Of a stretch of DNA of 64,000 nt, positions 44,719 through 58,358 are shown piece after piece. The stretch lies in the NCBI RefSeq assembly GCF_000421105.1, contig NZ_ATWF01000001.1, positions 1,499,407-1,563,406 of the forward strand. The letters run 5' to 3'. Both the position numbers and the translations under genes were made by a program. How positions within the stretch are numbered: the stretch's first letter is position 1; every line of letters begins with the position of its first letter. Origin of the DNA: Limisalsivibrio acetivorans. GTDB lineage: Bacteria; Chrysiogenota; Deferribacteres; Deferribacterales; Geovibrionaceae. The notes beneath the pieces were generated by a model. It saw only the letters and a program-made list of their open reading frames with translations. It searched no databases and was not told where the DNA came from.

Positions 44719-45467
44719 TAGAGATAAACGGCCTCAACTTCAGCTACGGGGATTCCTTCACCCTCGATGTGGAGAGCCTCAGCCTTCCGACGGGTGAGAT
44801 CGGCATGATAATTGGTCCAAATGGAAGCGGAAAGTCCACCCTGTTGAGGCTTATATGCGGAATAATCAAAGATTTCGAAGGAAAGATACACATCAACGGG
44901 CACAATATAAGTGAGCTTGACGAGCGGGAGACTGCCAAGCTCATCTCCTATGTGGGTCCGGCAAATAGGGGCGTGGCGGGGCATACAGTACAGGACATCG
45001 TGGCCACCGGTCGCTACCCGTATACGGGTGGATTCGGCATACTCACCGAAGAGGACAATCGGATGGTGGAGCACGCCCTCGATGTTGTGGGTCTGCTAAA
45101 ACGCCGTGGAGACTGTATAACAAGCCTCTCCTCCGGTCAGCAGCAGAGAGCTTTCATAGCAAGGGCTGTGGCGCAGGATACCCCTGTTATTGCCCTCGAT
45201 GAGCCCACAGCAAACCTTGACCCACGTTACCGCAAACGTATCATGGAGATACTGCTTGAGCTCAAAGTGAGACGTACCGTGGTTATAGTTGAACACGACC
45301 TTAACATGGCAGTCCGGATGGGCAACACCCTGACAGGCTTCGTTGATGGTAAAAAACTTCTTGAAATGAAAGAGCCTTACAGCGGTCTCAAAGAGAGATT
45401 GAGCGAGCTCTACGATACAGACTTGAATATATTCTACGTTGATGGTAGATTCTTCATAGACTTTTGA
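44715..45467 (+). CDS. btuD: cobalamin ABC transporter ATPase BtuD-like
   Basis: 250 residues. Walker A IGPNGSGKST, Q-loop region, signature LSSGQQQR, Walker B VIALDEPTANLDP and the H-switch VIVEHDLNMA are all intact. GTG start at 44715 overlapping btuC. It powers uptake through BtuC. The B12 riboswitch begins right after its stop, so this operon itself is not behind the riboswitch unless it has one upstream, and I saw none. Confidence 0.92.
   Translation: MIEINGLNFSYGDSFTLDVESLSLPTGEIGMIIGPNGSGKSTLLRLICGIIKDFEGKIHINGHNISELDERETAKLISYVGPANRGVAGHTVQDIVATGRYPYTGGFGILTEEDNRMVEHALDVVGLLKRRGDCITSLSSGQQQRAFIARAVAQDTPVIALDEPTANLDPRYRKRIMEILLELKVRRTVVIVEHDLNMAVRMGNTLTGFVDGKKLLEMKEPYSGLKERLSELYDTDLNIFYVDGRFFIDF
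45423..45451 (+). promoter_or_regulatory. possible promoter driving the riboswitch transcript
   Basis: TTGAAT, 17-base spacer, TAGATT, inside the last codons of btuD. Transcription would start near 45458, about 20 bases before the riboswitch P1 stem. Confidence 0.35.
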
Positions 45468-45478
45468 GCCAAACATTT

Positions 45479-45614
45479 TCCGTTTCGGGGAAGTCCGGTG
45501 AAAATCCGGCACTGTCCCGCAACTGTAAGCCGGACGAAAGCCCGTTGGAACCCACTGCCTTATGGCGGGAAGGGGGGCGACTAGGAGGATGGCGAGTCAG
45601 GATACCCGGACGGG
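45479..45614 (+). ncRNA. cobalamin (B12) riboswitch
   Basis: All core blocks are present in order: GGGAAGTCCGGTGAAAATCC, CTGTCCCGCAACTGTAAGC, CACTGCC, GGCGGGAAGG, and GAGTCAGGATACC. The ends pair as P1 (CCGTTTCGGG with CCCGGACGG). Such RNAs bind adenosyl- or other cobalamins and shut off uptake genes when B12 is plentiful. Downstream lie a strong AAGGAGG at 45646 and the DUF4465/btuB surface genes. No strong terminator stem with T-run is visible, so control is probably at translation. Confidence 0.95.
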
Positions 45615-45657
45615 GGATCTCAAAGTACTAAAACCTTACGCGGATAAGGAGGTACCC

Positions 45658-45678
45658 ATGCTGTCATTCCGATATTAA
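45658..45678 (+). CDS. six-residue leader ORF (MLSFRY) behind the riboswitch
   Basis: ATG at 45658 has a perfect AAGGAGG (45646-45652) with five-base spacing, the best ribosome site of the region, yet the frame ends after six codons. The true gene starts 63 bases later with TTG. The leader may couple riboswitch control of ribosome binding to the downstream gene, or it may be the relic of an earlier start. Confidence 0.4.
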   Translation: MLSFRY

Positions 45679-45741
45679 TCTTCAATTAAACCCGTTCAAT
45701 CAAGCACCCGTATACCTATAATCTTACAAAGGAGTTCTACA

Positions 45742-47676
45742 TTGAGAGTAATAGCCTCTACACTCCTCATTATCCTGTGTGCTGTCAGTGCCTTTGCATC
45801 TTTCACAGGATTTGAGGATATAAGCCTGGACAACGAATCATACTGGAACGGCTCCGACGGTTCCGGTGATCTCATAAGCAACGGAATCATCTTCGGCAAC
45901 AACTACAACGCAGACTGGATGAGCTGGGACGGCTTCGCCTGTTCCAACGTAACCGACAACCAAACTGCGGACTGGTCAAACCAGTATTCTGCAATCACAG
46001 GGAGCGGAATTAACGCCTCAGACAACTACGGCGTTGCCTACAACGGCTACACCGAAGCCCCTGAGATAACCATGCCCGAGAGCGGCAGGGTCACAGGCTT
46101 CTTCATAAGCAACTCCACCTATGCCTACAACTCCATGAAGCACGGAGACGACTTCGCCAAGAAGTTTGGCGGTGAAATAGGGGAGGATCCCGACTGGTAC
46201 GCCGTAACCGCAGTGGGATATGACGAAACTGGAACCGAAACGGGGAGAACAGACTTTTACCTCGCAGATTACCGCGGGGAGGATGACTATATCGTCAACA
46301 ACTGGCGGTGGTTCGATCTCTCAGAGCTGGGCAGCGATGTGAAAACCGTTGAATTTGAATTCGCCTCTTCCGACATGGGTGACTTCGGTATGAACACCCC
46401 CGCCTATTTTGTTCTGGATAACTTCAACGCAAAAACGGAACAGATCAGCTTCGAGGATACTTCCACAACTGCGGGTTCCTACAAAAACGGCTCGGATGTT
46501 TCCGGCGAATACATATCGGGTAACCTCCGCTTTGCAAACAACTACAACGCAGACTGGATGAGCTGGGAGGGCTTCGCCCTTTCATCGGTGGATGCACCCG
46601 CAACGAAGGGCTACATGAACCAGTATGCCGCCGTAACAGGGGGAGGCGTACTATCCGACACCTACGCAGTGGCCTACAGCGGATACACCGCCGAGCCCGT
46701 AATAACCCTCCCTGCAGAGGGGAGCGTATCCGGTCTCTATATAACAAACACCGCCTACGCTTTCTGGAGCATGCTTGAGGGTGATGATTTTGCCAAGAAG
46801 TTCGGCGGTGAAACGGAGGACGACCCCGACTGGTTCAAGGCAACCTTCACAGGCAGGGATGCAGAGGGTAACGCCACGGGGAGTGTTGATGTTTATCTCG
46901 CCGATTACCGCTTCGAAGAGAGTGGTGATGACTATATCCTCAGAAGCTGGAAGTGGGTTGACTTAAGCCCCCTCGGCGATGTGAAGGATGTCACGGTGAG
47001 CTTTTCCGGCTCGGATATGGGCGATTTCGGGCTGAATACACCCGCCTACGCCGCCCTAGACTATATCAACTCCGCAGAGCTTTCAAACAGCGACCTCAAC
47101 GGCAACGGAGTTTCCGATGACCATGAAGCTCCCGCAACGGCGGATCTCGATGATGACGGAACCCCCGATGCCTTCCAGGATAATGCACTCTCAACCATAA
47201 CTAACAACGGTGAGACCATTACAGCTACAGCACTTTCAGGAACGCTTAAATCCCTGAGTGCCGAGGCAGTTACAGAGAGAGCCGCCTATACATTCGCTAC
47301 CCCTTCGGTGAGCATAACAGCCGAAGGTCAGCAGGCGGATATAAATATATATCCCGAAAACGGGCTTAACGGCGCCGATACGGTCTTCATCCGAAAAGCA
47401 ACAGGATGGCAGGAAGCTGAGGACGGCATAACCGCCTCAAACTATTTCGGCATAACAGCCTATGACGGCGGGGTATACGATACCGACGGTCTTGAAAACG
47501 GCGAGATCAACCTTATCCTTGCCGCCGGAACCGTTGACGAAGATACCGGCACAGATGATGACACCAGCTCCGGCGGTGGCGGGGGTGGATGTTCAGCGGG
47601 TGGAGGCGACTCCCTCGGCTGGCTCCTGCTCGCACTCTCCCTCGGAGTAATAACAATAAGAAGGAAAGAGCAATAA
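45742..47676 (+). CDS. surface protein with two DUF4465 domains and CSAG C-terminal tag (B12-regulated)
   Basis: 644 residues from TTG 45742 behind AAAGGAG. A Sec signal peptide (IASTLLIILCAVSAFA) is followed by two tandem ~220-residue copies of the DUF4465 domain. Each contains NNYNADWMSW(D/E)GFA, NQY(S/A)A(I/V)TG, DDFAKKFGGE and DMGDFG(M/L)NTPAY. A Ca2+-binding-like loop DLNGNGVSDDHE follows, then a beta domain, a Gly-rich linker, and the tag GGCSAG-helix-RRKEQ with 28 residues from Cys617 to the end. Position behind the B12 riboswitch and before a BtuB-like receptor suggests it captures or presents cobamides at the cell surface. That role is inference. Confidence 0.9.
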   Translation: MRVIASTLLIILCAVSAFASFTGFEDISLDNESYWNGSDGSGDLISNGIIFGNNYNADWMSWDGFACSNVTDNQTADWSNQYSAITGSGINASDNYGVAYNGYTEAPEITMPESGRVTGFFISNSTYAYNSMKHGDDFAKKFGGEIGEDPDWYAVTAVGYDETGTETGRTDFYLADYRGEDDYIVNNWRWFDLSELGSDVKTVEFEFASSDMGDFGMNTPAYFVLDNFNAKTEQISFEDTSTTAGSYKNGSDVSGEYISGNLRFANNYNADWMSWEGFALSSVDAPATKGYMNQYAAVTGGGVLSDTYAVAYSGYTAEPVITLPAEGSVSGLYITNTAYAFWSMLEGDDFAKKFGGETEDDPDWFKATFTGRDAEGNATGSVDVYLADYRFEESGDDYILRSWKWVDLSPLGDVKDVTVSFSGSDMGDFGLNTPAYAALDYINSAELSNSDLNGNGVSDDHEAPATADLDDDGTPDAFQDNALSTITNNGETITATALSGTLKSLSAEAVTERAAYTFATPSVSITAEGQQADINIYPENGLNGADTVFIRKATGWQEAEDGITASNYFGITAYDGGVYDTDGLENGEINLILAAGTVDEDTGTDDDTSSGGGGGGCSAGGGDSLGWLLLALSLGVITIRRKEQ

Positions 47677-49622
47677 AAGCCATATATTCGCTCTGTATAG
47701 CACTCACAATGCTTGTGATCCCGGTCGGAACCGCAACCGGCCGGGATCGTTCCTACACCCTTGAGGAATACGTTGTAACCGCGGGAAGAACAGGTTCCTA
47801 TGCGGAGAATATCCCTTCGGCGGCGAGCGTCATCACACCAGATAATATTGCCGAATCGGGCGCAGTGAGTGCAGGGGAGCTTATCGCCATGTACACCGGC
47901 GCAACGGTTCGCAGTCTGGGGAGTGGAACGGTAATCGATCTCAGAGGAATGGGGGACACAGCCGCCTCATCGGTGGTTATCCTCGTGGATGGTGTACGTA
48001 TCAACCATGCTGACATGAGCGGTGCAGACCTTAAATCGATCCCTGTTGAGGATATCGAAAGGGTAGAGATCCTCAAAAGCAGCGGGCAGACATCCTACGG
48101 GAACGGAGCTGTCGGCGGTGTTGTTAATATTATCACCAAAGAATCATCTAAATCCTCCCTCAGTGGTGAATACGGAAGCTATGATGAGAAGTCCGCTGCA
48201 TTCATTACAGGTGGAGAGAGTGATGGCTTTATTTTTAAATTCCTCGCAAAGAGCTATCAAACCGGGGGTTTCAGGGATAATGGATGGGAGAAGCACAAGA
48301 CAGGCTCCGCCTCCTTCACCTTCGAACCGGACTACACCCTCACCTACGGCGCCAGACTAAGCTTCACAGACAGCTCCTACGGGCTCCCGGGCGGTGTTTC
48401 CATCGATGACCTTGATGGTGACAGAGATTCAGCCGGCCGCCCCGATGATTACGGCGATACATCGAATGAACGTGCCCTGTTCCATGTGGAAAAATTTATC
48501 GGAGAATACCAGATTAACGCAAAAGCGGGCTTCGCCAAGCGTCATTCCCCATTCGTAATGGGCTATTCCCCCCTGCTCCCCATAGACGAACAGAGGGGGC
48601 TTACTGAGGAGGATACGGCGGATCTGAGCCTTGTTCTCACAACGGAAAGGGAAGTTTTCGGCAGAACTACTGAGATAAGTGCAGGTGGAGATATATTCAT
48701 GTCGGATTACGTAAGGTCCGACCCCTCCTCCGGCTCCAGACATAACTCCAATACCAGAAGCGGCGGTGTATTTATAAGCGCAGAATCGGAAATAGCCCCC
48801 GGAACACTTCTGACTGCAGGGATAAGATACTCCATCCATTCCGGCATTTACCGTGAAGACTCACATAAAAGCTTCTCCGGCGAGAAGATCTGGATAAACG
48901 GTGAGGAGCACCGCAGGGAAAACTCCGAGTACTCCTGGGAGCTCGGAGCAGTGCACGATATGGGGGATTATAACCTTTTTGCATCCTTCGCCCGCTCCTT
49001 CCGCATGCCTAACACCGATGAATACGCCAAGGCGGCGGAGGAGCTTAAGCCCCAGACCGGACTCCATGCAGATGCAGGAATCCGCTACTCGGCCAATGAC
49101 ACAAATCTCTCAGCATCCCTCTTCGCCATAGTTATCGATGATGAACTGTACTACGGCGAGGATGAATCGGGTGAACCGCTGAACAGAAACTACGGCGACA
49201 AAACAATGCGGAAGGGAGCGGAGATTTCAGCATCGAAATCATTCGCACAGCTGAGGCTTAAGGGAACCTACACATATACCGATGCAAAGTTTAAAAACTC
49301 CGGCAGACAGATACCTCTGGTACCTGAACATAAAGCAACGGCGGTTTTAAAGTATTCTCTTGGCGAGGGTCTTCTCTTAGGGGCCGATGCCGTATACGTT
49401 TCCTCTAGGCTGGATGGAAACGATACCGGCTCCCGGGATTACGCCGGTCTCGATGCCTACGGAGTGTTTGGACTTAATATATCTTACAAGTACAAGAACA
49501 TACGCCTCACAGCCTCGGCGGACAACATATTCGATGAGGGATACGAATCCGCCGCCTACAGCGAAACATACTATCCCATGCCCGGCAGGACGTTCCGTGC
49601 CGGAGCGGAGGTTGAATTCTGA
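47673..49622 (+). CDS. btuB: TonB-dependent outer-membrane receptor, BtuB-like
   Basis: About 649 residues. The signal peptide KAIYSLCIALTMLVIPVGTATG is followed by a Ton-box-like LEEYVVTAGR. Then come the plug domain (PSAASVITPDNIAESGAVSA; VVILVDGVRINHADMSG; SYGNGAVGGVVNIITK) and a barrel ending in GAEVEF with terminal Phe. The most natural start is ATA at 47673: it lies seven bases after AAGGA and overlaps the previous stop as ATAA. Other in-frame options are ATG 47589, which adds 28 Arg-rich residues, or ATG 47709, which cuts the signal peptide. B12 transport is inferred from the riboswitch and btuFCD. Confidence 0.88.
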   Translation: MKAIYSLCIALTMLVIPVGTATGRDRSYTLEEYVVTAGRTGSYAENIPSAASVITPDNIAESGAVSAGELIAMYTGATVRSLGSGTVIDLRGMGDTAASSVVILVDGVRINHADMSGADLKSIPVEDIERVEILKSSGQTSYGNGAVGGVVNIITKESSKSSLSGEYGSYDEKSAAFITGGESDGFIFKFLAKSYQTGGFRDNGWEKHKTGSASFTFEPDYTLTYGARLSFTDSSYGLPGGVSIDDLDGDRDSAGRPDDYGDTSNERALFHVEKFIGEYQINAKAGFAKRHSPFVMGYSPLLPIDEQRGLTEEDTADLSLVLTTEREVFGRTTEISAGGDIFMSDYVRSDPSSGSRHNSNTRSGGVFISAESEIAPGTLLTAGIRYSIHSGIYREDSHKSFSGEKIWINGEEHRRENSEYSWELGAVHDMGDYNLFASFARSFRMPNTDEYAKAAEELKPQTGLHADAGIRYSANDTNLSASLFAIVIDDELYYGEDESGEPLNRNYGDKTMRKGAEISASKSFAQLRLKGTYTYTDAKFKNSGRQIPLVPEHKATAVLKYSLGEGLLLGADAVYVSSRLDGNDTGSRDYAGLDAYGVFGLNISYKYKNIRLTASADNIFDEGYESAAYSETYYPMPGRTFRAGAEVEF

Positions 49623-51172
49623 TGAAAGTTCTATATACGGCAATCCTTCTCATAGTATCATCCCTCGCCTTCGCCGGCCCCTACACCGATGAAGGGGGAA
49701 TACCCTTAGACTCTGAGGATATAGCAGGCTGGGCGCAAACGGTCATAGACTACTCACCCGGCTCGGAGGTGGATTCCACATGGATGAACACCGCAAACGC
49801 CCTCGGTCGTGCCGAAGGGAAAGCGGACACCGTTGTATCCCTCGGCAGAGGGGGGAGCATTACCCTGAGCTTTGAAAGACCATTCATAGACGGCCCCGGC
49901 TGGGATATAGCGGTATACGAGAACTCCTTCGCACCCGATTTTCTGGAGCTTGCTTTTGTGGAGATAAGCGAAGACTGCGAAAGCTTCCTGCGGTTCCCAG
50001 CTGTATCGCTAACACCCGGCCCCGTCTCCGCCTACGGCAAAAGCGACCCCACGGATATATACAACCTCGCAGGGAAGTACAAGGCCGGTCTCGGAACACC
50101 CTTTGATATATCCGGCATCGAAGAAGCGCCTGAGGAGATAAACTGCCTGCGCATAGTTGATATAATAGGTGACGGCTCCTCCACAGATTCCGAAGGGAAC
50201 ATTATTTTCGACCCCTATCCAACGGTATCCTCCGCAGGTTTTGATCTGGACGGAGTATCCGTTCGATACTTCGCGGAATCCGAGGGTTCACCACCGTCAC
50301 CCCCCGAGACCAGTATCTCTTATCCGGAGGGTTATGCCGCCCTCGTATCCCTTTCGAACTACAGCGATCCGGATAATGAGCCCATGGCCGGGGCAAAGTT
50401 CACGGTTTATAACGATACCCCCATAATCCATACCGAAACGGAGAATCCTGTTCTTCCCCTCCCCCGCTCCCTTTTCATCAACGGCGATGAGGCATGTGTT
50501 CAGGCCATCTTTGTGGATGCATCGGGCTTATCCTCCGTAATCGGGGAGGAGGTATGCTTCACCCCCGAACTGACAGAGCGGAATGGATACGGCATAGAGA
50601 CCGCATCACTAATCACCGATGGTTCGGACCTCAACGGAAACGGCATGGCGGACGCTGATGAAATGGCTAGCGGAGTGGTTCCGCTGACAAACGGTGAAAT
50701 ATCCCTGACCATCACATCGTCCGATCATCTGAACGCAGCAGGTTTCGAACAGGGGAGCTTCATACTCAACTATGAAACACCTGAGCTGAGCGCTGAGGCA
50801 TGCTCCAGTATAACCGTCGGAAGTATCAGGACACAGAGTAGTTCCGGTGGTGTAAAAGAGCATAACCTTACGGACGGATGTGCAGAATTATTTATTTCAG
50901 ACGGCTCCAGTCTGGATGCGGACGGCGTTATAAACGGACGTGTTATCGTGATTGCAGAGGCCGAAAGTATAGAGATACCCGAAAACGGAAACGCAGGTGT
51001 CGGAGGCGGGGGGTGCTCTGCCGGCTCATCATTTTTCAGTGTTCCATTACTTCTTCTCGCTGTTGTATTGCAAAGAATGCTCCAAAAGCTTAATATATTA
51101 TCATACAATAGAGACAAGAGGGGAAAAAGACATAGACACAAGAACAGCCCTCAAGGCTTTGGAGCTGGTTGA
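49622..51172 (+). CDS. second B12-locus surface protein with CSAG tag and extended tail
   Basis: 516 residues; its ATG is one base from the btuB stop. A signal peptide (LYTAILLIVSSLAFA) precedes a beta domain (DTVVSLGRGGSITLSFERPF; DIAVYENSFAPDFLELAFVE) that I have seen in surface proteins near cobalamin loci of other phyla (recollection, not checked). A Pro-rich linker, a Ca2+-loop-like DLNGNGMADADE and a second beta domain follow, then Gly-rich GGGGCSAG and a hydrophobic helix. Unlike its two relatives it runs on for 52 residues after the Cys, with a basic tail (RDKRGKRHRHK) that overlaps the next operon's promoter. Function beyond B12 association is unknown. Confidence 0.82.
   Translation: MKVLYTAILLIVSSLAFAGPYTDEGGIPLDSEDIAGWAQTVIDYSPGSEVDSTWMNTANALGRAEGKADTVVSLGRGGSITLSFERPFIDGPGWDIAVYENSFAPDFLELAFVEISEDCESFLRFPAVSLTPGPVSAYGKSDPTDIYNLAGKYKAGLGTPFDISGIEEAPEEINCLRIVDIIGDGSSTDSEGNIIFDPYPTVSSAGFDLDGVSVRYFAESEGSPPSPPETSISYPEGYAALVSLSNYSDPDNEPMAGAKFTVYNDTPIIHTETENPVLPLPRSLFINGDEACVQAIFVDASGLSSVIGEEVCFTPELTERNGYGIETASLITDGSDLNGNGMADADEMASGVVPLTNGEISLTITSSDHLNAAGFEQGSFILNYETPELSAEACSSITVGSIRTQSSSGGVKEHNLTDGCAELFISDGSSLDADGVINGRVIVIAEAESIEIPENGNAGVGGGGCSAGSSFFSVPLLLLAVVLQRMLQKLNILSYNRDKRGKRHRHKNSPQGFGAG
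51068..51096 (+). promoter_or_regulatory. promoter of the degenerate-kinase operon
   Basis: TTGCAA, 17-base spacer, TAATAT, inside the 3' end of the preceding gene. Transcription would start near 51103, fifteen bases before a GAGGGG ribosome site at 51118-51123. Confidence 0.45.
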
Positions 51173-54059
51173 TGAGCCTGTTATCATTTGCTCACCCTGC
51201 GGAGATATTCTTTTTGCAAACAGGAGCCTCTATTCATTAACGGGATTCAGCGATAAGCTTGAGTCCACCAAGGAACTTGGGGAAACCTTTGCGGATGACT
51301 TCCTTAATGAGGCTGGTGAAGCTGATACCTTAAGGGACTACAGCTCGGTAATAATTAATTCATCTGGAAGTGTTCTCATTGTCTCTGTTCATATGGAGAA
51401 GAGGGAGGATATTATCCTGACCCTTGAGAAGTCAGAGGTCAAGCCTCTCCCTCCGGAAGTATCCTATCTGACACTGCTCACCCAGCATGATTCGCTCCTG
51501 TTCGCCGTAACTGTTAACGGTATTATCGAGTATACCTCCTCCGGACTCTCTAAGCTTCTGGGCTATTCGAAGGCGGAGGTGCGGGGGACAAGCTTCAGCG
51601 ATTTCGTGACGGAAGAGAGCAGGCCCCGCATTTCTCTATTTGCAATGGGCACAAAGATGCCTGCACCCACCGTTAGCATAACTACAGAGAGTGGCACCGT
51701 TGAGGCGGCGCTGAATGCCAGCTACGGCGAAGTTAATGGCCGTGTGGCCGCTGTTATAACCGTTAAGCCCTTTGAAGAAGCTCAACAGGAGAAGATGGAG
51801 GAGAATGAGCGTCTTCCGCTTATAAGCATCAATAAAAACACCGGTCTCATAACCAGAGTAAGCCAGGCGGCGGCTCATCAATTCAGTATCAGAGCAGGAG
51901 AAAGTGCGGCAGAGATCTTTCCAGGGTTCAGTACCAGCCTCTTTGAGAGGGCAGGTGAGGTTTCATTATCTCTTAAAACAGCCGAAAGAATCCTGCGGGT
52001 TCACCTTTCTCTGTCCTCAAGCTCGGGTGGTGAACTCACCTTTCTTATCAGGAATATATCAGACAGTAAGTATTCAAAGGCGGCCGCCTCAATGATGGAA
52101 AGGTTTGCCAGGAGCATCAAATCCGCTTCGGGGGTGGGTGAGGTAAGCCTTAATATAATTAGCATTGTAAAGGAGATTCCCTTTGTTAAGTATGCCGGAA
52201 CATACCTGAGAGAGGAGGACGGATCCTACAGGCTGGGTCACCACTTCGGTATATCAGAGAATTTTGCGGTATTAACAGAAACAGTAACCCAGGAGCATCC
52301 GGCTCACAGGTTCCTATCCTTCAAAGACCCTATGATAAACTTCACACACATCGATCCCAGGGTACGAAGCCTTGTGGAAGCCGAATCGATGGAGACGTTG
52401 ATCTCAATCCCCGTTCACCTTGACGGGAAGACCGAGATATCTATCAATCTCGCATCGGATGAATTGTTCGACATCCCCGAGGAGATATTCTACCTTCTCA
52501 AAACCATATCATACGGAGCCGGCTGCGCCCTTAAACGGATAAAAACGGACAAAGGTGAGTTCGGAAGCGACATCTCCGCACTTAAGGAACAGCTCATAAG
52601 GGAAACACGTGAACTGAAGAAGGTGAGTGAAAGCCTTGAGCGAAGCGAAAACACCTTCCGGCAGATGGTGGAACAGACTCCCGAGCCTGTTATCCTCCAC
52701 AGCTTTAGCGGCGGGATTATAATGATTAATGATGCCGCATCGCTGGCTTTGTCCATCAATCCTGGCTCAGTTGAGGGATGGAGCATATACGATCTTAACT
52801 GGAATGCCGATAGAAACGACCTGCAAAAGACATTCCTCCGTCTCCAGCCCGGCCAGCGTACAACGCTGGAGTGCTCTTCGGGAAGCGGGGAGGATGAGCG
52901 GTTGCTGGAATTCAGTATAGGTCTGGTGGATTACGACGATGCCCCCGCCTTTCTACTCATGGGCAGGGATATAACGGAGAAAAGAAGGAGCGAGACACTT
53001 CTGAGGGAACGTGAAAGGCTTTTCAGGCTACTATCAGAGAACTCCCCCGCAGGGCTTTTTATCGCCCAGGATGGTGAGCTGGAATACAGCAACCCGGCCT
53101 TTGAGGCGATGCTGGGCTATGTTCAGGGGGAGCTTAAAGGGGAGACCTTCCCGGAGGGGATAATCGCCGAGAAGGACATCGGTACTCTGCTATCCTCAAT
53201 GGAAAGTGTTTTAACCGGCCGGATGAGGTACAGTGCTTCATCTTTGGAAGCTCTGCACAGGGAGGGTTCCTTTAAAAATCTTCGCATATTCGGCTCTGCC
53301 GGATTCCTAAGCTCCAGACCATGCTTCATCGGTCTTGCCGTTGACATAACCGAGCAGTCTATACAAGAGAGCATGGTTATGCACAAGGCGAAACTTGCTG
53401 CTATGGGTGAGATGCTGGTTAACATCTCCGGACAATGGAAACCCTCACTCAATAAGGTTATCAAAGGGACGGAGGATATGCGCACCCATATCTGCAAGGA
53501 GCCGCCGGATATCAAGTCCCTCTCCGAAACGCTGGAGGAGATGAACCGGATACTTGTTTTTATGGATGAAAGGCTTGAGGATCTTGATACGGTAACCGCA
53601 CCCGACTCAGGTACAGGGCATTTCAACGCCGCAGAGGTTTCCGCAAAAACAGCCGCAGTTGCCGAGAGTATTATGAACAGCAGAGGGATCAGCTTTGTTC
53701 AGGATTTCAGCTTTGACAAGAGGGTAAAGGGGAATCCTTCCCGCTTCTCCCAGGTTCTTATGAATATATTGACCAACGCTGTAAACACCCTTACCGAAAG
53801 GAAAATTACCGAACCAAGGGTTCAAATAGAAACCTTTTCGCTGGATGGCAGCATCGCCGTAAGGATATCCGATAACGGCGGCGGTGTGCACGAGAAAGAC
53901 TTTAACAAGATATTCGAACCTTACTACTCCGGCAGCGGAGACTCCCACGGGCTCGGTCTTTATATAGCCAAAAGGATCATTGAAAAGGATATGGACGGCC
54001 TCCTCCATGTTAGAAATGACAGCAGGGGAGCTGTTTTTACCATAGTCCTTCGGAGCTGA
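51132..54059 (+). CDS. multi-PAS/GAF sensor protein with kinase domain lacking the phospho-acceptor His
   Basis: About 975 residues if started at ATA 51132, eight bases after GAGGGG. The first later start is TTG 51159, without a properly spaced ribosome site, and the open frame extends back to 50997. Two to three PAS-like domains are followed by a GAF domain, coiled coil, two more PAS domains, a HisKA-like segment and an ATPase domain. The H-box normally reads IAHQW in this type. Here it is NISGQWKPSLN, with Gly767 in place of His. The ATPase boxes (NILTNAVNTL, DNGGG, HGLGLYI) look intact. It is soluble, and is first of three nearly abutting genes. Confidence 0.85.
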   Translation: MDTRTALKALELVDEPVIICSPCGDILFANRSLYSLTGFSDKLESTKELGETFADDFLNEAGEADTLRDYSSVIINSSGSVLIVSVHMEKREDIILTLEKSEVKPLPPEVSYLTLLTQHDSLLFAVTVNGIIEYTSSGLSKLLGYSKAEVRGTSFSDFVTEESRPRISLFAMGTKMPAPTVSITTESGTVEAALNASYGEVNGRVAAVITVKPFEEAQQEKMEENERLPLISINKNTGLITRVSQAAAHQFSIRAGESAAEIFPGFSTSLFERAGEVSLSLKTAERILRVHLSLSSSSGGELTFLIRNISDSKYSKAAASMMERFARSIKSASGVGEVSLNIISIVKEIPFVKYAGTYLREEDGSYRLGHHFGISENFAVLTETVTQEHPAHRFLSFKDPMINFTHIDPRVRSLVEAESMETLISIPVHLDGKTEISINLASDELFDIPEEIFYLLKTISYGAGCALKRIKTDKGEFGSDISALKEQLIRETRELKKVSESLERSENTFRQMVEQTPEPVILHSFSGGIIMINDAASLALSINPGSVEGWSIYDLNWNADRNDLQKTFLRLQPGQRTTLECSSGSGEDERLLEFSIGLVDYDDAPAFLLMGRDITEKRRSETLLRERERLFRLLSENSPAGLFIAQDGELEYSNPAFEAMLGYVQGELKGETFPEGIIAEKDIGTLLSSMESVLTGRMRYSASSLEALHREGSFKNLRIFGSAGFLSSRPCFIGLAVDITEQSIQESMVMHKAKLAAMGEMLVNISGQWKPSLNKVIKGTEDMRTHICKEPPDIKSLSETLEEMNRILVFMDERLEDLDTVTAPDSGTGHFNAAEVSAKTAAVAESIMNSRGISFVQDFSFDKRVKGNPSRFSQVLMNILTNAVNTLTERKITEPRVQIETFSLDGSIAVRISDNGGGVHEKDFNKIFEPYYSGSGDSHGLGLYIAKRIIEKDMDGLLHVRNDSRGAVFTIVLRS

Positions 54060-54060
54060 C

Positions 54061-55092
54061 ATGGATAAAAATATTATAGATGAATTCAACCTCAGATTTA
54101 AGGATATCCCGTTGGCCGCCGCACTCAGTAGGAGGGGTAGTTGTTTCGAAGCGGTCAACGCCGCCTTTTGCTCACTTCTGGGCTACAAAGAGGATGAACT
54201 TACAGCCCTCAGGCCTTCGGATATCTCTCACCCGGGGGATTATAAAAGGGAAGTTGAACGGATTATCAACATGAAACAGAACGAAGAAGAGAGCCTGCGC
54301 TTGGACAAGAGATACATCCATCGCAGAGGGGATATTATACACTGCCGCTGTGTTTTTTTCCCCTTCGGCAGCGAAGGGCATGTTGCCGGCCTAATAGAGG
54401 ATTACTCAGGAATCATTGACGAATACCGAAGCTCTAATTCAGAGATGGATAAACTCAAACGCTCAGACAGCGTAAAATCCTCCCTCATCTCCGGAATAGC
54501 GAAGGAGTTGAGGGAGCCTCTGCATATGATACTGAGCTACTCAGCCTTTGGTATAGAACGTCTGGACAAGGTTTCGTCCGAAAAAATAAGAAGGTACTTC
54601 AAAAACATCGATTCCGCGGCAAAGGATATTCTCAGGTTCTCCAACGAGCTCTTTGATCTGGGTACACTAAGCCTTTTCGAAAAGCTGGAGACTGGAACTG
54701 CGGATATATATGGCGCAGTTATGAAGTCGGTCGATGAAACAACCGATAACTATCCCGGGTTTGTGCTGGACATAGAGCGCCCTCCAGGCGAGGTAACCGG
54801 TGTGGTGTGTGATTCTGCAAAGCTTGAGAGGATCGTTACCATACTGCTCGATAACGCCGCCTCCTTAAGTGGCGAGAAGAAGAGGTGCAGGGCTGAAATA
54901 GAAAAAGACCCGGAGAACGATACACGCATCATTTTAAGCTTTCGATCACCTAAATGTCTGGAATCCATGTCATATGTAGAACTCACAGAGATGATAGCCC
55001 GCGATACCGTCGAAAGGATGGGGGGGTGGCTTGAAACGGAAACATCCGGCGGGGAATATATCCAAAGGATTATACTGAACAGAGTGTTATAG
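54061..55092 (+). CDS. PAS-domain pseudokinase
   Basis: 343 residues: a PAS domain (about 10-125), a HisKA-like helix pair and a remnant ATPase domain. The H-box SHELRTPL reads AKELREPL, with Lys148 for the phospho-acceptor His. The N-box is recognisable (ILLDNAASLS), but no DxGxG or G2 Gly-rich loop follows (LSFRSPKCLESMSYVEL), so ATP binding is doubtful. It starts two bases after the preceding stop. The domain is probably used for binding or dimerisation rather than catalysis. Confidence 0.82.
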   Translation: MDKNIIDEFNLRFKDIPLAAALSRRGSCFEAVNAAFCSLLGYKEDELTALRPSDISHPGDYKREVERIINMKQNEEESLRLDKRYIHRRGDIIHCRCVFFPFGSEGHVAGLIEDYSGIIDEYRSSNSEMDKLKRSDSVKSSLISGIAKELREPLHMILSYSAFGIERLDKVSSEKIRRYFKNIDSAAKDILRFSNELFDLGTLSLFEKLETGTADIYGAVMKSVDETTDNYPGFVLDIERPPGEVTGVVCDSAKLERIVTILLDNAASLSGEKKRCRAEIEKDPENDTRIILSFRSPKCLESMSYVELTEMIARDTVERMGGWLETETSGGEYIQRIILNRVL

Positions 55093-55093
55093 G

Positions 55094-56524
55094 ATGAGCA
55101 GAAAAGAAACGATACTGATCGCCGGCGGCAGCATGGTGGAAAGGGAGATACTTGAGGAAACACTTGGGGAAGAGTTTCACGTTCTTCAAAGCAGTGGTTA
55201 CTCTGAAGCGGTAGAGCTGTGCTCCCGTGAGAATCCGCTCCTGATACTGGCGGATATCGATCGGGGAATAGAGCAGAGTGCGGAGCTTTTCAGCCGTCTG
55301 AAAAAGAACCGGGTTACAGCGGATACCCCGCTTATTGCGCTCACTGCATCCTCAATGCCCGATGATAAGCTGTTGATATACCGCTCTGGTGCTGATGACT
55401 GCATTATCAAGCCCTATACATCCGAAGAGATACGGATAAAGCTATCCCTTTTCAATACAAGGACTCCCCAATGTATGAACGGATATACCCTTGATACTAA
55501 GGAAGGAATAATGAATCTCTCCTCTCCGTGGAAGAGTTTGCTCGGTATATCACCATCAAGAAAATCTGCGGATGTTGAAACATTGCGGATGATGATGGAT
55601 GAAAAAGAGAGGGACTTTCACCTTAAACATCACGAAAAGGCTCTCAGAGACAGGTTTTCCTCCATGGAGTATACCCTCGAAGTATCAGGAGAGTTTATCA
55701 ATGTTTTTGAATCTGCCAGGAGCTTTTCCGATGATGGGGTTCTTTACTGCTCAATGGGGGATATAACTCATCTATGCAGGAGGATTGAGGGGCTTAAAGG
55801 GGAGAACTCTTTCTACGAAGGGATACTGGAAGAGCTCCCTATGCTTGTCTCTGCAAGGGATGAAACGGGGAGGTACAGATACGTTAACAAAGCCTTCATG
55901 GAGTTCACCGGTAAAAAAACCGAGGAGCTCTACGGAAGATACCCCGAAGAGGCATGGAGCAGAGAGATCTCGCTTATCCATATGCGTGCGGACAGGGAGC
56001 TGCTGGAGAAGAAGGAGCCTCTCGAGTACGAAGCGGGATACCCTTACAAAGATGGCTCCTCAAGGACTGTTTTTTGTCATAAAGCCCTGGTGCCATACAA
56101 CAAAGGCAGAAGTGCAATGATAAACTCTGTTTTTGATCTTACAAACTTCCGCACTGCTGAAAAGCTGAACACGGACATCAAGGCGATGGCCGCCTCCTCC
56201 AGAGGGATAAGCAAAACGCTTGATTCCATAATACTCCCCGCTGCTTTCATATCCAGCCAGGGTCATATACTCCATTCTAACATGCTCATGGAGGCGGCTT
56301 TCCGCAAAGGAAGCGTTATTAGGGGTTCTGAGATTGCAAATCTGTTCGATGGGAACGAAAAGAAGAAGGTTCAGCAGATCCTTGACTTGGAGAAGACGGG
56401 CTATGCGATGACCTCCATAAGCTCGGGCTCACGCAGGAGTGCGCACTTCACCTTCATAAGCGATAAGGACAACGTATTCGAAGGCTTTATCGTGTCCTTC
56501 TCCGAGGAGGAGAGGGCTAGATAA
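55094..56524 (+). CDS. pseudo-receiver protein with PAS domains
   Basis: 476 residues. Residues 5-118 form a receiver fold (ETILIAGGSMVEREILEETL ... PLIALTASSMPDDKL ... GADDCIIKPYTSEEI). Asp54, Thr84 and Lys106 remain, but the Mg2+-binding acidic pair is replaced by Gly11-Gly12. Three PAS-like regions follow; the best (about 245-355) includes DETGRYRYVNKAFMEFTGKK. There is no output or DNA-binding domain. It begins two bases after the previous gene, completing a three-gene unit. Its end overlaps a small minus-strand frame by 8 nt. Confidence 0.8.
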   Translation: MSRKETILIAGGSMVEREILEETLGEEFHVLQSSGYSEAVELCSRENPLLILADIDRGIEQSAELFSRLKKNRVTADTPLIALTASSMPDDKLLIYRSGADDCIIKPYTSEEIRIKLSLFNTRTPQCMNGYTLDTKEGIMNLSSPWKSLLGISPSRKSADVETLRMMMDEKERDFHLKHHEKALRDRFSSMEYTLEVSGEFINVFESARSFSDDGVLYCSMGDITHLCRRIEGLKGENSFYEGILEELPMLVSARDETGRYRYVNKAFMEFTGKKTEELYGRYPEEAWSREISLIHMRADRELLEKKEPLEYEAGYPYKDGSSRTVFCHKALVPYNKGRSAMINSVFDLTNFRTAEKLNTDIKAMAASSRGISKTLDSIILPAAFISSQGHILHSNMLMEAAFRKGSVIRGSEIANLFDGNEKKKVQQILDLEKTGYAMTSISSGSRRSAHFTFISDKDNVFEGFIVSFSEEERAR

Positions 56525-56642: not shown

Positions 56643-58358
56643 TTATATATTGAACTTGCTCACCGTGGACTGCAGGTCAGAGGCAAGCTTGCTTAGCTGT
56701 TCCACTGCGGCTGCTGTCTCCTGTGATGCGAGGGAATTCTCGCCAGCAATATTGGAGATATTCTCGATACTCTCCGCCATCATGCCCATGGCGCTCGCCT
56801 GCTCATCGGTGGCCTTTGCGATCTGCTCGACCTCAGAGGACACAGACTCCACATTTTCCTTAATCACATCAAGGGCCTGTCTCGCCTCTCCAGCTTTGAC
56901 CTTACCCTGTTCCACCTGCTCGACACCTTCATGCATGCCCGCAACAGCTCCGCCTGTATCAGCCTGGATGCCCTGGATCATATCAGCGATCTCCTGGGTG
57001 GCCTTAACGGTTTTCTCAGCCAGCTTGCGAACTTCATCGGCCACGACTGCAAATCCCCTTCCGTGCTCACCAGCTCTGGCCGCTTCAATGGCGGCGTTAA
57101 GCGCAAGAAGGTTTGTCTGGTCGGCTATATCATCGATTACCTGAATGATCTGGCCTATCTGTTCGCTCGACTCGCCAAGCTTGCGTACGGTTTCGGAAGC
57201 ATCCTCAACGGTTCTTGCAATCTCCTCCATCATATCTCTGGTTTCATCCACAAGGGCGTGCCCCTGCACAACGGATTCCCTCGCCTCGTTGGCACTGCGG
57301 GAAACGCTTCCGGCATTATCGGCAACCTCGGCCACCGTAGCGTTAACCTCCTCCACTGCCGATGCGGTACTTGCAACCTGCTCAGCCTGATCCGTTGCAC
57401 CTTTGGCGATGGTTTCCGCATTGCTCGAGAGCTCTGCGGAGGTGGAGGCGAGGCTGTCTATACTGTCCACTACGGTACGAAGGGCGTTACTGCTGGCATC
57501 CACCATACGGTTAACGGCCCTTCCAAGCTCACCAACCTCATCACTGGAACCGGCTTCAACGCTGACGGTGTAGTCACCCTCGGCTATCTTTTCGAAGACC
57601 TTGCCCATAGCCTCCAGCCTGCGGAAGATGAAGCGGCTGTTTATAAGGTAAAGTATTATAATAATTGCGATGGTTGCGGGGAGCATTATCATAAGCTGCT
57701 GTATAAGTCCCTTATGGATGGCCGCAAAGACGGGTGCTGTGGGGAGAAAGACCTCGAAGGCTCCATGTATCTCACCAGCTCTCCAGTTTTCCATCTTTGT
57801 CCCTGTGGGGTCTCGTCCATCATCACGCCCCCAGTACTCGGAGGATCTGGCGGGGTCACCGTGGCATGTCTCGCACTCGGTCGTCAGCCTGATAGCCTTG
57901 AAGTACCGAAGCATGCCTGATTTCTTATCGTGCACAGTATATTCGGGAGTGGTCCCTGAGCCGGTATCGAGCTCCTTGAGTTTATTAAGTACTTCGGATT
58001 CAATGGCATCTGGTTCGTTTTTCGGATTCCTTGGAGATACTTTGGGAACTTTGAACTTAAGGCCAGCCTCTTCGGACTTAAGCTCCATAACTGTTATGGA
58101 AGCAATAATAGGAACGGTGAGAAGGAACTTATCCACGTCCTCCCTCGCCTCTTCCATATCAAAAACACCTTCGTTAAGCTGTTTTGCTCCCCATTGTCTG
58201 ACACCTTCGGAGGCAAGCACAAAGCTTCTCGCCCTCTCAAATTCAGCTTCAAACATATGCTCTTTTGTCAGAAAGTAGTTGAATACAAGGATTGCACCAA
58301 CACCTAAACTCACAATCAAAGCCACGAGAATAGCTATCTTTGCATTAAGCTTCATCAA
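56643..58358 (-). CDS. methyl-accepting chemotaxis protein with periplasmic c-type heme domain
   Basis: 571 residues. A membrane helix (about 8-30) is followed by a periplasmic sensor of the Tll0287-like/DUF3365 type. It contains Cys162-Glu-Thr-Cys165-His166 (ECETCHGDP), a c-type heme attachment site. Then come a second membrane helix (about 215-237), a HAMP domain and a full MCP signalling domain ([37 protein letters not shown]). It probably directs movement in response to redox state or a heme ligand such as NO or CO. No CheR pentapeptide at the C-terminus (SKFNI). Confidence 0.92.

Follow-up and report, generated by a model that had tools for sequence, protein, structure and literature searches.

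Three adjacent genes of Limisalsivibrio acetivorans, designated P1, P2, and P3, may be the last genes of a cobalamin-riboswitch operon for B12 capture at the outer membrane and may encode a soluble signaling module that works without His-Asp phosphotransfer. We favor this reading tentatively. The genes and the altered or intact active-site positions are listed below, with coordinates given for the window, the whole 64,000-nucleotide stretch of DNA that was analyzed.

51133 or 51159..54059, + strand: P1, PAS-PAS-(GAF-like)-PAS-PAS-DHp-CA pseudo-histidine kinase (Pfam PAS; HATPase_c, 2.6e-18)
53430..53432, + strand: P1 G761 (GGA) in the place of the H-box His (homologues HQWRQPL, P1 GQWKPSL)
53763..53951, + strand: N, G1 (DNGGG), F, and G2 (GLGL) boxes of the P1 CA domain, intact (alignment, codon check)
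54061..55092, + strand: P2, PAS-DHp-degenerate CA pseudo-histidine kinase (HisKA, 8.4e-6)
54502..54504, + strand: P2 K148 (AAG) in the place of the H-box His (homologues HE(I/L)RTPL, P2 KELREPL)
55094..56524, + strand: P3, pseudo-receiver followed by PAS domain(s) (Response_reg, 9.5e-9; PAS_4, 7.4e-12)
55124..55129, + strand: P3 G11-G12 (GGC GGC) in the place of the acidic pair (alignment, codon check)

A single base separates P1 from P2 and another single base separates P2 from P3; a preliminary description of this DNA had given gaps of two bases and one. The same description regarded the three proteins as soluble and their frames as open. Both points were borne out, with no membrane-spanning stretch in any of the three (maximum Kyte-Doolittle 1.35) and not one stop or frameshift in about 1,785 codons. 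Around the first PAS domain of P1, neither ATG nor GTG is present as a start codon. The candidate starts are an ATA at 51133, about ten bases past AGAGGGG, and a TTG at 51159, both inside the 3' end of the preceding gene. The GAF-like stretch of P1 is a weak match (E 0.098), and P2 has no Pfam match to HATPase_c. Neither a DNA-binding nor an enzyme output domain was found in P3, and none of the three proteins has a recognized output domain. Thus, the output is presumably protein binding.

The active-site residues were read from alignments to homologues, from relatives as well as from the same genome, and the codons were checked. These readings agree with the substitutions originally described: Gly for His in the first H-box, Lys for His in the second protein, which also lacks a DxGxG box, and Gly-Gly for the acidic pair of the receiver. 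In the CA domain of P2 the N-box Asn is kept (N265), and the G1, F, and G2 boxes are gone, as is the ATP lid. The phospho-acceptor His of an orthodox histidine kinase is therefore absent from both P1 and P2, and the full set of N, G1, F, and G2 boxes is found in P1 and not in P2. A pseudo-histidine kinase, that is, a DHp-CA fold with no phospho-acceptor His, is recognizable in P1 by sequence and in P2 by sequence and structural model. An orthodox receiver has the acidic pair, Asp, Thr/Ser, and Lys; P3 departs from it through the Gly-Gly and retains D54 (55253), T84 (55343), and K106 (55409). Pseudo-receivers (PsR) are defined as Response_reg matches missing at least one of five residues, a class that includes P3 (PF00072, 35.9 bits, cut-off 30.2, with DD replaced). 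The earlier statement of lost phosphotransfer residues in every protein is correct in that each has losses, but it overlooks the ATP boxes of P1 and the three residues that P3 has kept. With these boxes intact, P1 should still bind nucleotide. Because each protein lacks residues used in passing phosphate, the trio probably signals through protein binding rather than phosphate transfer.

The AlphaFold2 model of P2, built from a 22-sequence alignment (pLDDT 84.9, pTM 0.53), has a PAS domain, a helical hairpin, and a lidless CA-like sheet. Among the Foldseek matches to this model are PAS/LOV kinases and the pseudokinase DivL (4q20). For P3, the AlphaFold prediction was confident for the receiver alone (pLDDT about 94). 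The rest was mostly below 60, and no claim is therefore made for the fold of residues 120-476.

P1-P3 are the last members of a six-gene run that follows a cobalamin riboswitch and is joined by overlaps or one-base gaps. The features upstream of the trio are as follows.

45465..45627, + strand: cobalamin riboswitch aptamer (RF00174, 82.8 bits, gathering score 31.5, E 2.3e-19)
45742..47676, + strand: surface protein with two DUF4465 domains (BtuJ-type B12-binding) and a Gly/Cys C-terminal anchor (PF14717, 341.6 bits, cut-off 25)
47589..49622 (ORF limits), + strand: TonB-dependent receptor in a BtuB-like place (PF00593, PF07715)
49622..51172, + strand: secreted protein with a Gly-rich/TM/basic tail; its gene overlaps the receptor gene by 1 nt and also overlaps P1

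The aptamer is the sole RF00174 match in the genome and is preceded by btuF-, btuC-, and btuD-like genes. Binding of vitamin B12 by DUF4465 proteins has been shown for divergent members (PMC13398666), and such proteins are found in riboswitch operons of Bacteroides (PMC12751083). The TonB-dependent receptor, the true start of which is probably nearer 47660, matches TIGR01779 (TonB-B12) with a score under the cut-off. The secreted protein is a candidate B12-capture protein, with no Pfam or NCBIfam match and, in the phylum, no full-length relative but a match to its tail only. The basic part of this tail is unusually long. The DUF4465 gene seems to start at TTG 45743, and a short leader frame (MLSFRY, window 45645-45680) with a strong ribosome site lies between it and the riboswitch. 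At the other end of the run, the gene convergent with the trio (window 56643-58358, - strand) encodes a chemotaxis receptor whose sensor domain is Tll0287-like and has a CETCHG motif.

Searches of the run for internal promoters and terminators gave matches at the level of shuffled sequences, and a simple fold of the riboswitch expression platform was no better than shuffles. Because the genes overlap and no convincing terminator was seen within the run, we infer that the operon is one transcript. Since P1 overlaps the B12 cluster behind the riboswitch, the trio is probably made when B12 is scarce. No other DUF4465 protein was found across 50 genomes of the phylum, and hence the capture genes appear to be lineage-specific and perhaps acquired, a distribution that suggests gain by transfer. 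In seven sampled relatives, the regions 3' of the cobalamin riboswitch had no match to P1, P2, or P3, which, like the unusual start of P1, counts against the favored reading. Cobamide-uptake operons of Bacteroides likewise unite a cobalamin riboswitch, a DUF4465 protein (BtuJ), and a TonB receptor (BtuB). However, the DUF4465 protein here would be anchored by its C-terminal tail, unlike in the Bacteroides operons, and the paper on those operons does not mention kinase or two-component genes (PMC12751083). In the literature, we found no report of signaling proteins of the P1-P3 kind in B12 acquisition.

When the active sites were read across the genome, 3 of the 91 receiver matches had a noncanonical pocket, P3 among them. 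The other two pseudo-receivers (C1:425269-425595 and C1:1956549-1956872) have EN/S and DT/E, respectively, as acidic pair/Asp. The His is absent from 3 of 77 DHp-type kinases (P2 counted in), namely, P1, P2, and a dCache kinase on contig 2 with Gln for His (C2:54730). A HisKA-only protein encoded near a CheA gene (C1:2228330-2228524, open frame of 315 aa) has Asn at the His position, and its addition brings the total to about 4 of 78. In a permutation of labels, two pseudokinases and a pseudo-receiver fell within 4 kb of each other in 55 of 200,000 trials (about 3e-4, a figure that would be somewhat higher with the fourth pseudokinase counted). This low frequency indicates that the clustering is unlikely to be an independent accident.

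The pseudokinase on contig 2 belongs to a cluster of an active REC-kinase, the dCache pseudokinase, and an active dCache kinase, where "dCache" denotes our reading of a two-TM periplasmic sensor and not a Pfam result.

L058 11979-14108 (contig 2 of the same genome): dCache-like membrane pseudokinase, His replaced by Gln, G boxes lost

In two relatives from the family (L059 and L060), the syntenic first kinase is also a pseudokinase, with SEKLNTM or SDKLKTM and no G boxes, so that a pseudokinase adjoining an active kinase of the same kind is syntenic in three genomes. The DHp-CA parts of the two relatives' proteins are 79% identical, and gene-wide omega is about 0.1, with dS near saturation. 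The contig 2-type pseudokinase thus appears to be conserved in the family under purifying selection, and the low omega suggests that selection can retain pseudokinases in this lineage. We also considered whether the trio might be a local duplicate of this REC-HK/pseudo-HK/HK cluster and rejected this, since P2 alone is nearest to it and P1 is of the HQWRQPL class.

A search of 60 relatives, 50 of them from the same phylum, returned mostly paralogue-level matches (20-35%). The 50 genomes of the phylum yielded neither an orthologue of P1, P2, or P3 nor an orthologous trio. GTDB contigs were also scanned twice by peptide pattern, a method that detects close relatives only, and no relative of the trio emerged. 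Against plasmids, P2 had 22-27% matches to ordinary PAS kinases, among the matches listed. The preliminary description had proposed a conserved assembly. The residue losses, the open frames, and the poor fit of neutral decay on which it drew all stand, but the syntenic trio that conservation would predict was sought in these genomes and contigs and none was found, leaving that part of the interpretation unsupported.

P1-P3 together have 158 nonsense-equivalent sites, and the probability of encountering no stop would be 0.2 at 1% neutral divergence and 0.04 at 2%. The expectation voiced earlier, that decay would bring stops, is thus well founded, with a chance below 5% at 2% divergence that none would be present. 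The changes from H to G, H to K, and DD to GG require at least six specific base changes. Stops would be expected before so many specific changes, which makes plain neutral decay unlikely. Synonymous codon usage in P1-P3 is near that of the neighboring genes and better than in shifted frames. From this one genome we infer selection on the trio. It is quite improbable, in our judgment, that the trio is a signaling cluster in early decay, with selection relaxed and the three genes being lost. The failure to find orthologues among the 50 genomes of the phylum, the P1 start, and the codon score of P2, the lowest among the genes compared, are points in favor of early decay. However, the uninterrupted frames, the number of specific changes required, and the intact CA domain of P1 all argue against it.

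Another explanation, conceivable but unlikely, is that the three proteins form no complex of their own and that each is a decoy or partner of active kinases encoded elsewhere, in heterodimers that lower or redirect the output of those kinases. In its favor, P1 is nearest to the HQW(R/K)QPL kinases, which are abundant in its own genome, P2 is nearest to the active/pseudo dCache pair on contig 2 (33% over 138 residues), and there is precedent in ChrS and HrrS for a pseudokinase forming heterodimers with an active kinase (PMC9491836). The tight packing of the three genes and their shared degeneration, however, suggest a joint function. It is very improbable that the trio is still partly conventional, with the CA domain of P1 acting within a heterodimer to phosphorylate another kinase's His, and the Asp of P3 being phosphorylated despite the loss of the acidic pair. 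The intact boxes of P1 and the retention of D54, T84, and K106 in P3 would allow such a role. However, the phosphoryl group is coordinated by Mg2+, for which the acidic pair is the binding site (PMC12632262), FixT and Osp, which have the same loss, are not phosphorylated (PMC9430884), and P2 has neither the His nor an ATP site.

If instead the trio is a soluble module free of phosphotransfer, its PAS domains would sense a cytoplasmic cue, and nucleotide binding by P1 would serve as a conformational switch, as in NifL. The helical hairpins (DHp) of P1 and P2 may pair as dimers, and the metal-free receiver of P3 would dock on such a hairpin, as in FixT/Osp and DivK-DivL. The output would be the binding of another protein, the simplest candidate being an active kinase or regulator encoded elsewhere.

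Each of these steps has a counterpart in a known protein. DivL of Caulobacter, which has neither kinase nor phosphatase activity and acts as a sensor of a response regulator (PMC4211667), resembles the trio in having PAS domains, a DHp hairpin, and a replaced acceptor His (Tyr in DivL) and in not needing catalysis. However, the CA domain of DivL is complete and DivL binds DivK~P, whereas P2 has lost the lid and G boxes, and the two are not orthologous. Osp, which has no acidic pair and keeps the Asp, binds the CckA transmitter and inhibits CckA (PMC9430884). FixT and Osp are like P3 in their receiver fold, retained Asp, and missing acidic pair, but they are single-domain proteins, whereas P3 has the extra PAS domain(s). 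The GHKL domain of NifL binds ADP, and NifL traps NifA (PMC12540587). P1 shares with NifL the PAS domains, a kinase-like H region, and a nucleotide-binding GHKL domain, which in NifL serve to trap a protein with no phosphotransfer. However, P1 scores 38.8 bits against TIGR02938, below the cut-off of 242.45, and no NifA-like partner adjoins it.

The cluster is unusual and the operon that it seems to belong to is unexpected; the parts are known, and the novelty is their combination and the B12 link and location. A fuller proposal, possible but somewhat unlikely, is that P1-P3 make up a complete phosphate-free "pseudo two-component" complex under a cobalamin riboswitch, which would link a PAS-sensed state to B12 capture or to remote kinases by binding alone. 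Individual pseudokinases and individual pseudo-receivers are already known, and how bacterial pseudo-receivers switch has been called a mystery (PMC12632262). The trio, in which the two kinase-like proteins and the receiver are all pseudo-enzymes, would permit a test of this question with three soluble proteins. The riboswitch offers a ready on/off signal for such a test and suggests a physiological role for the trio in B12 acquisition.
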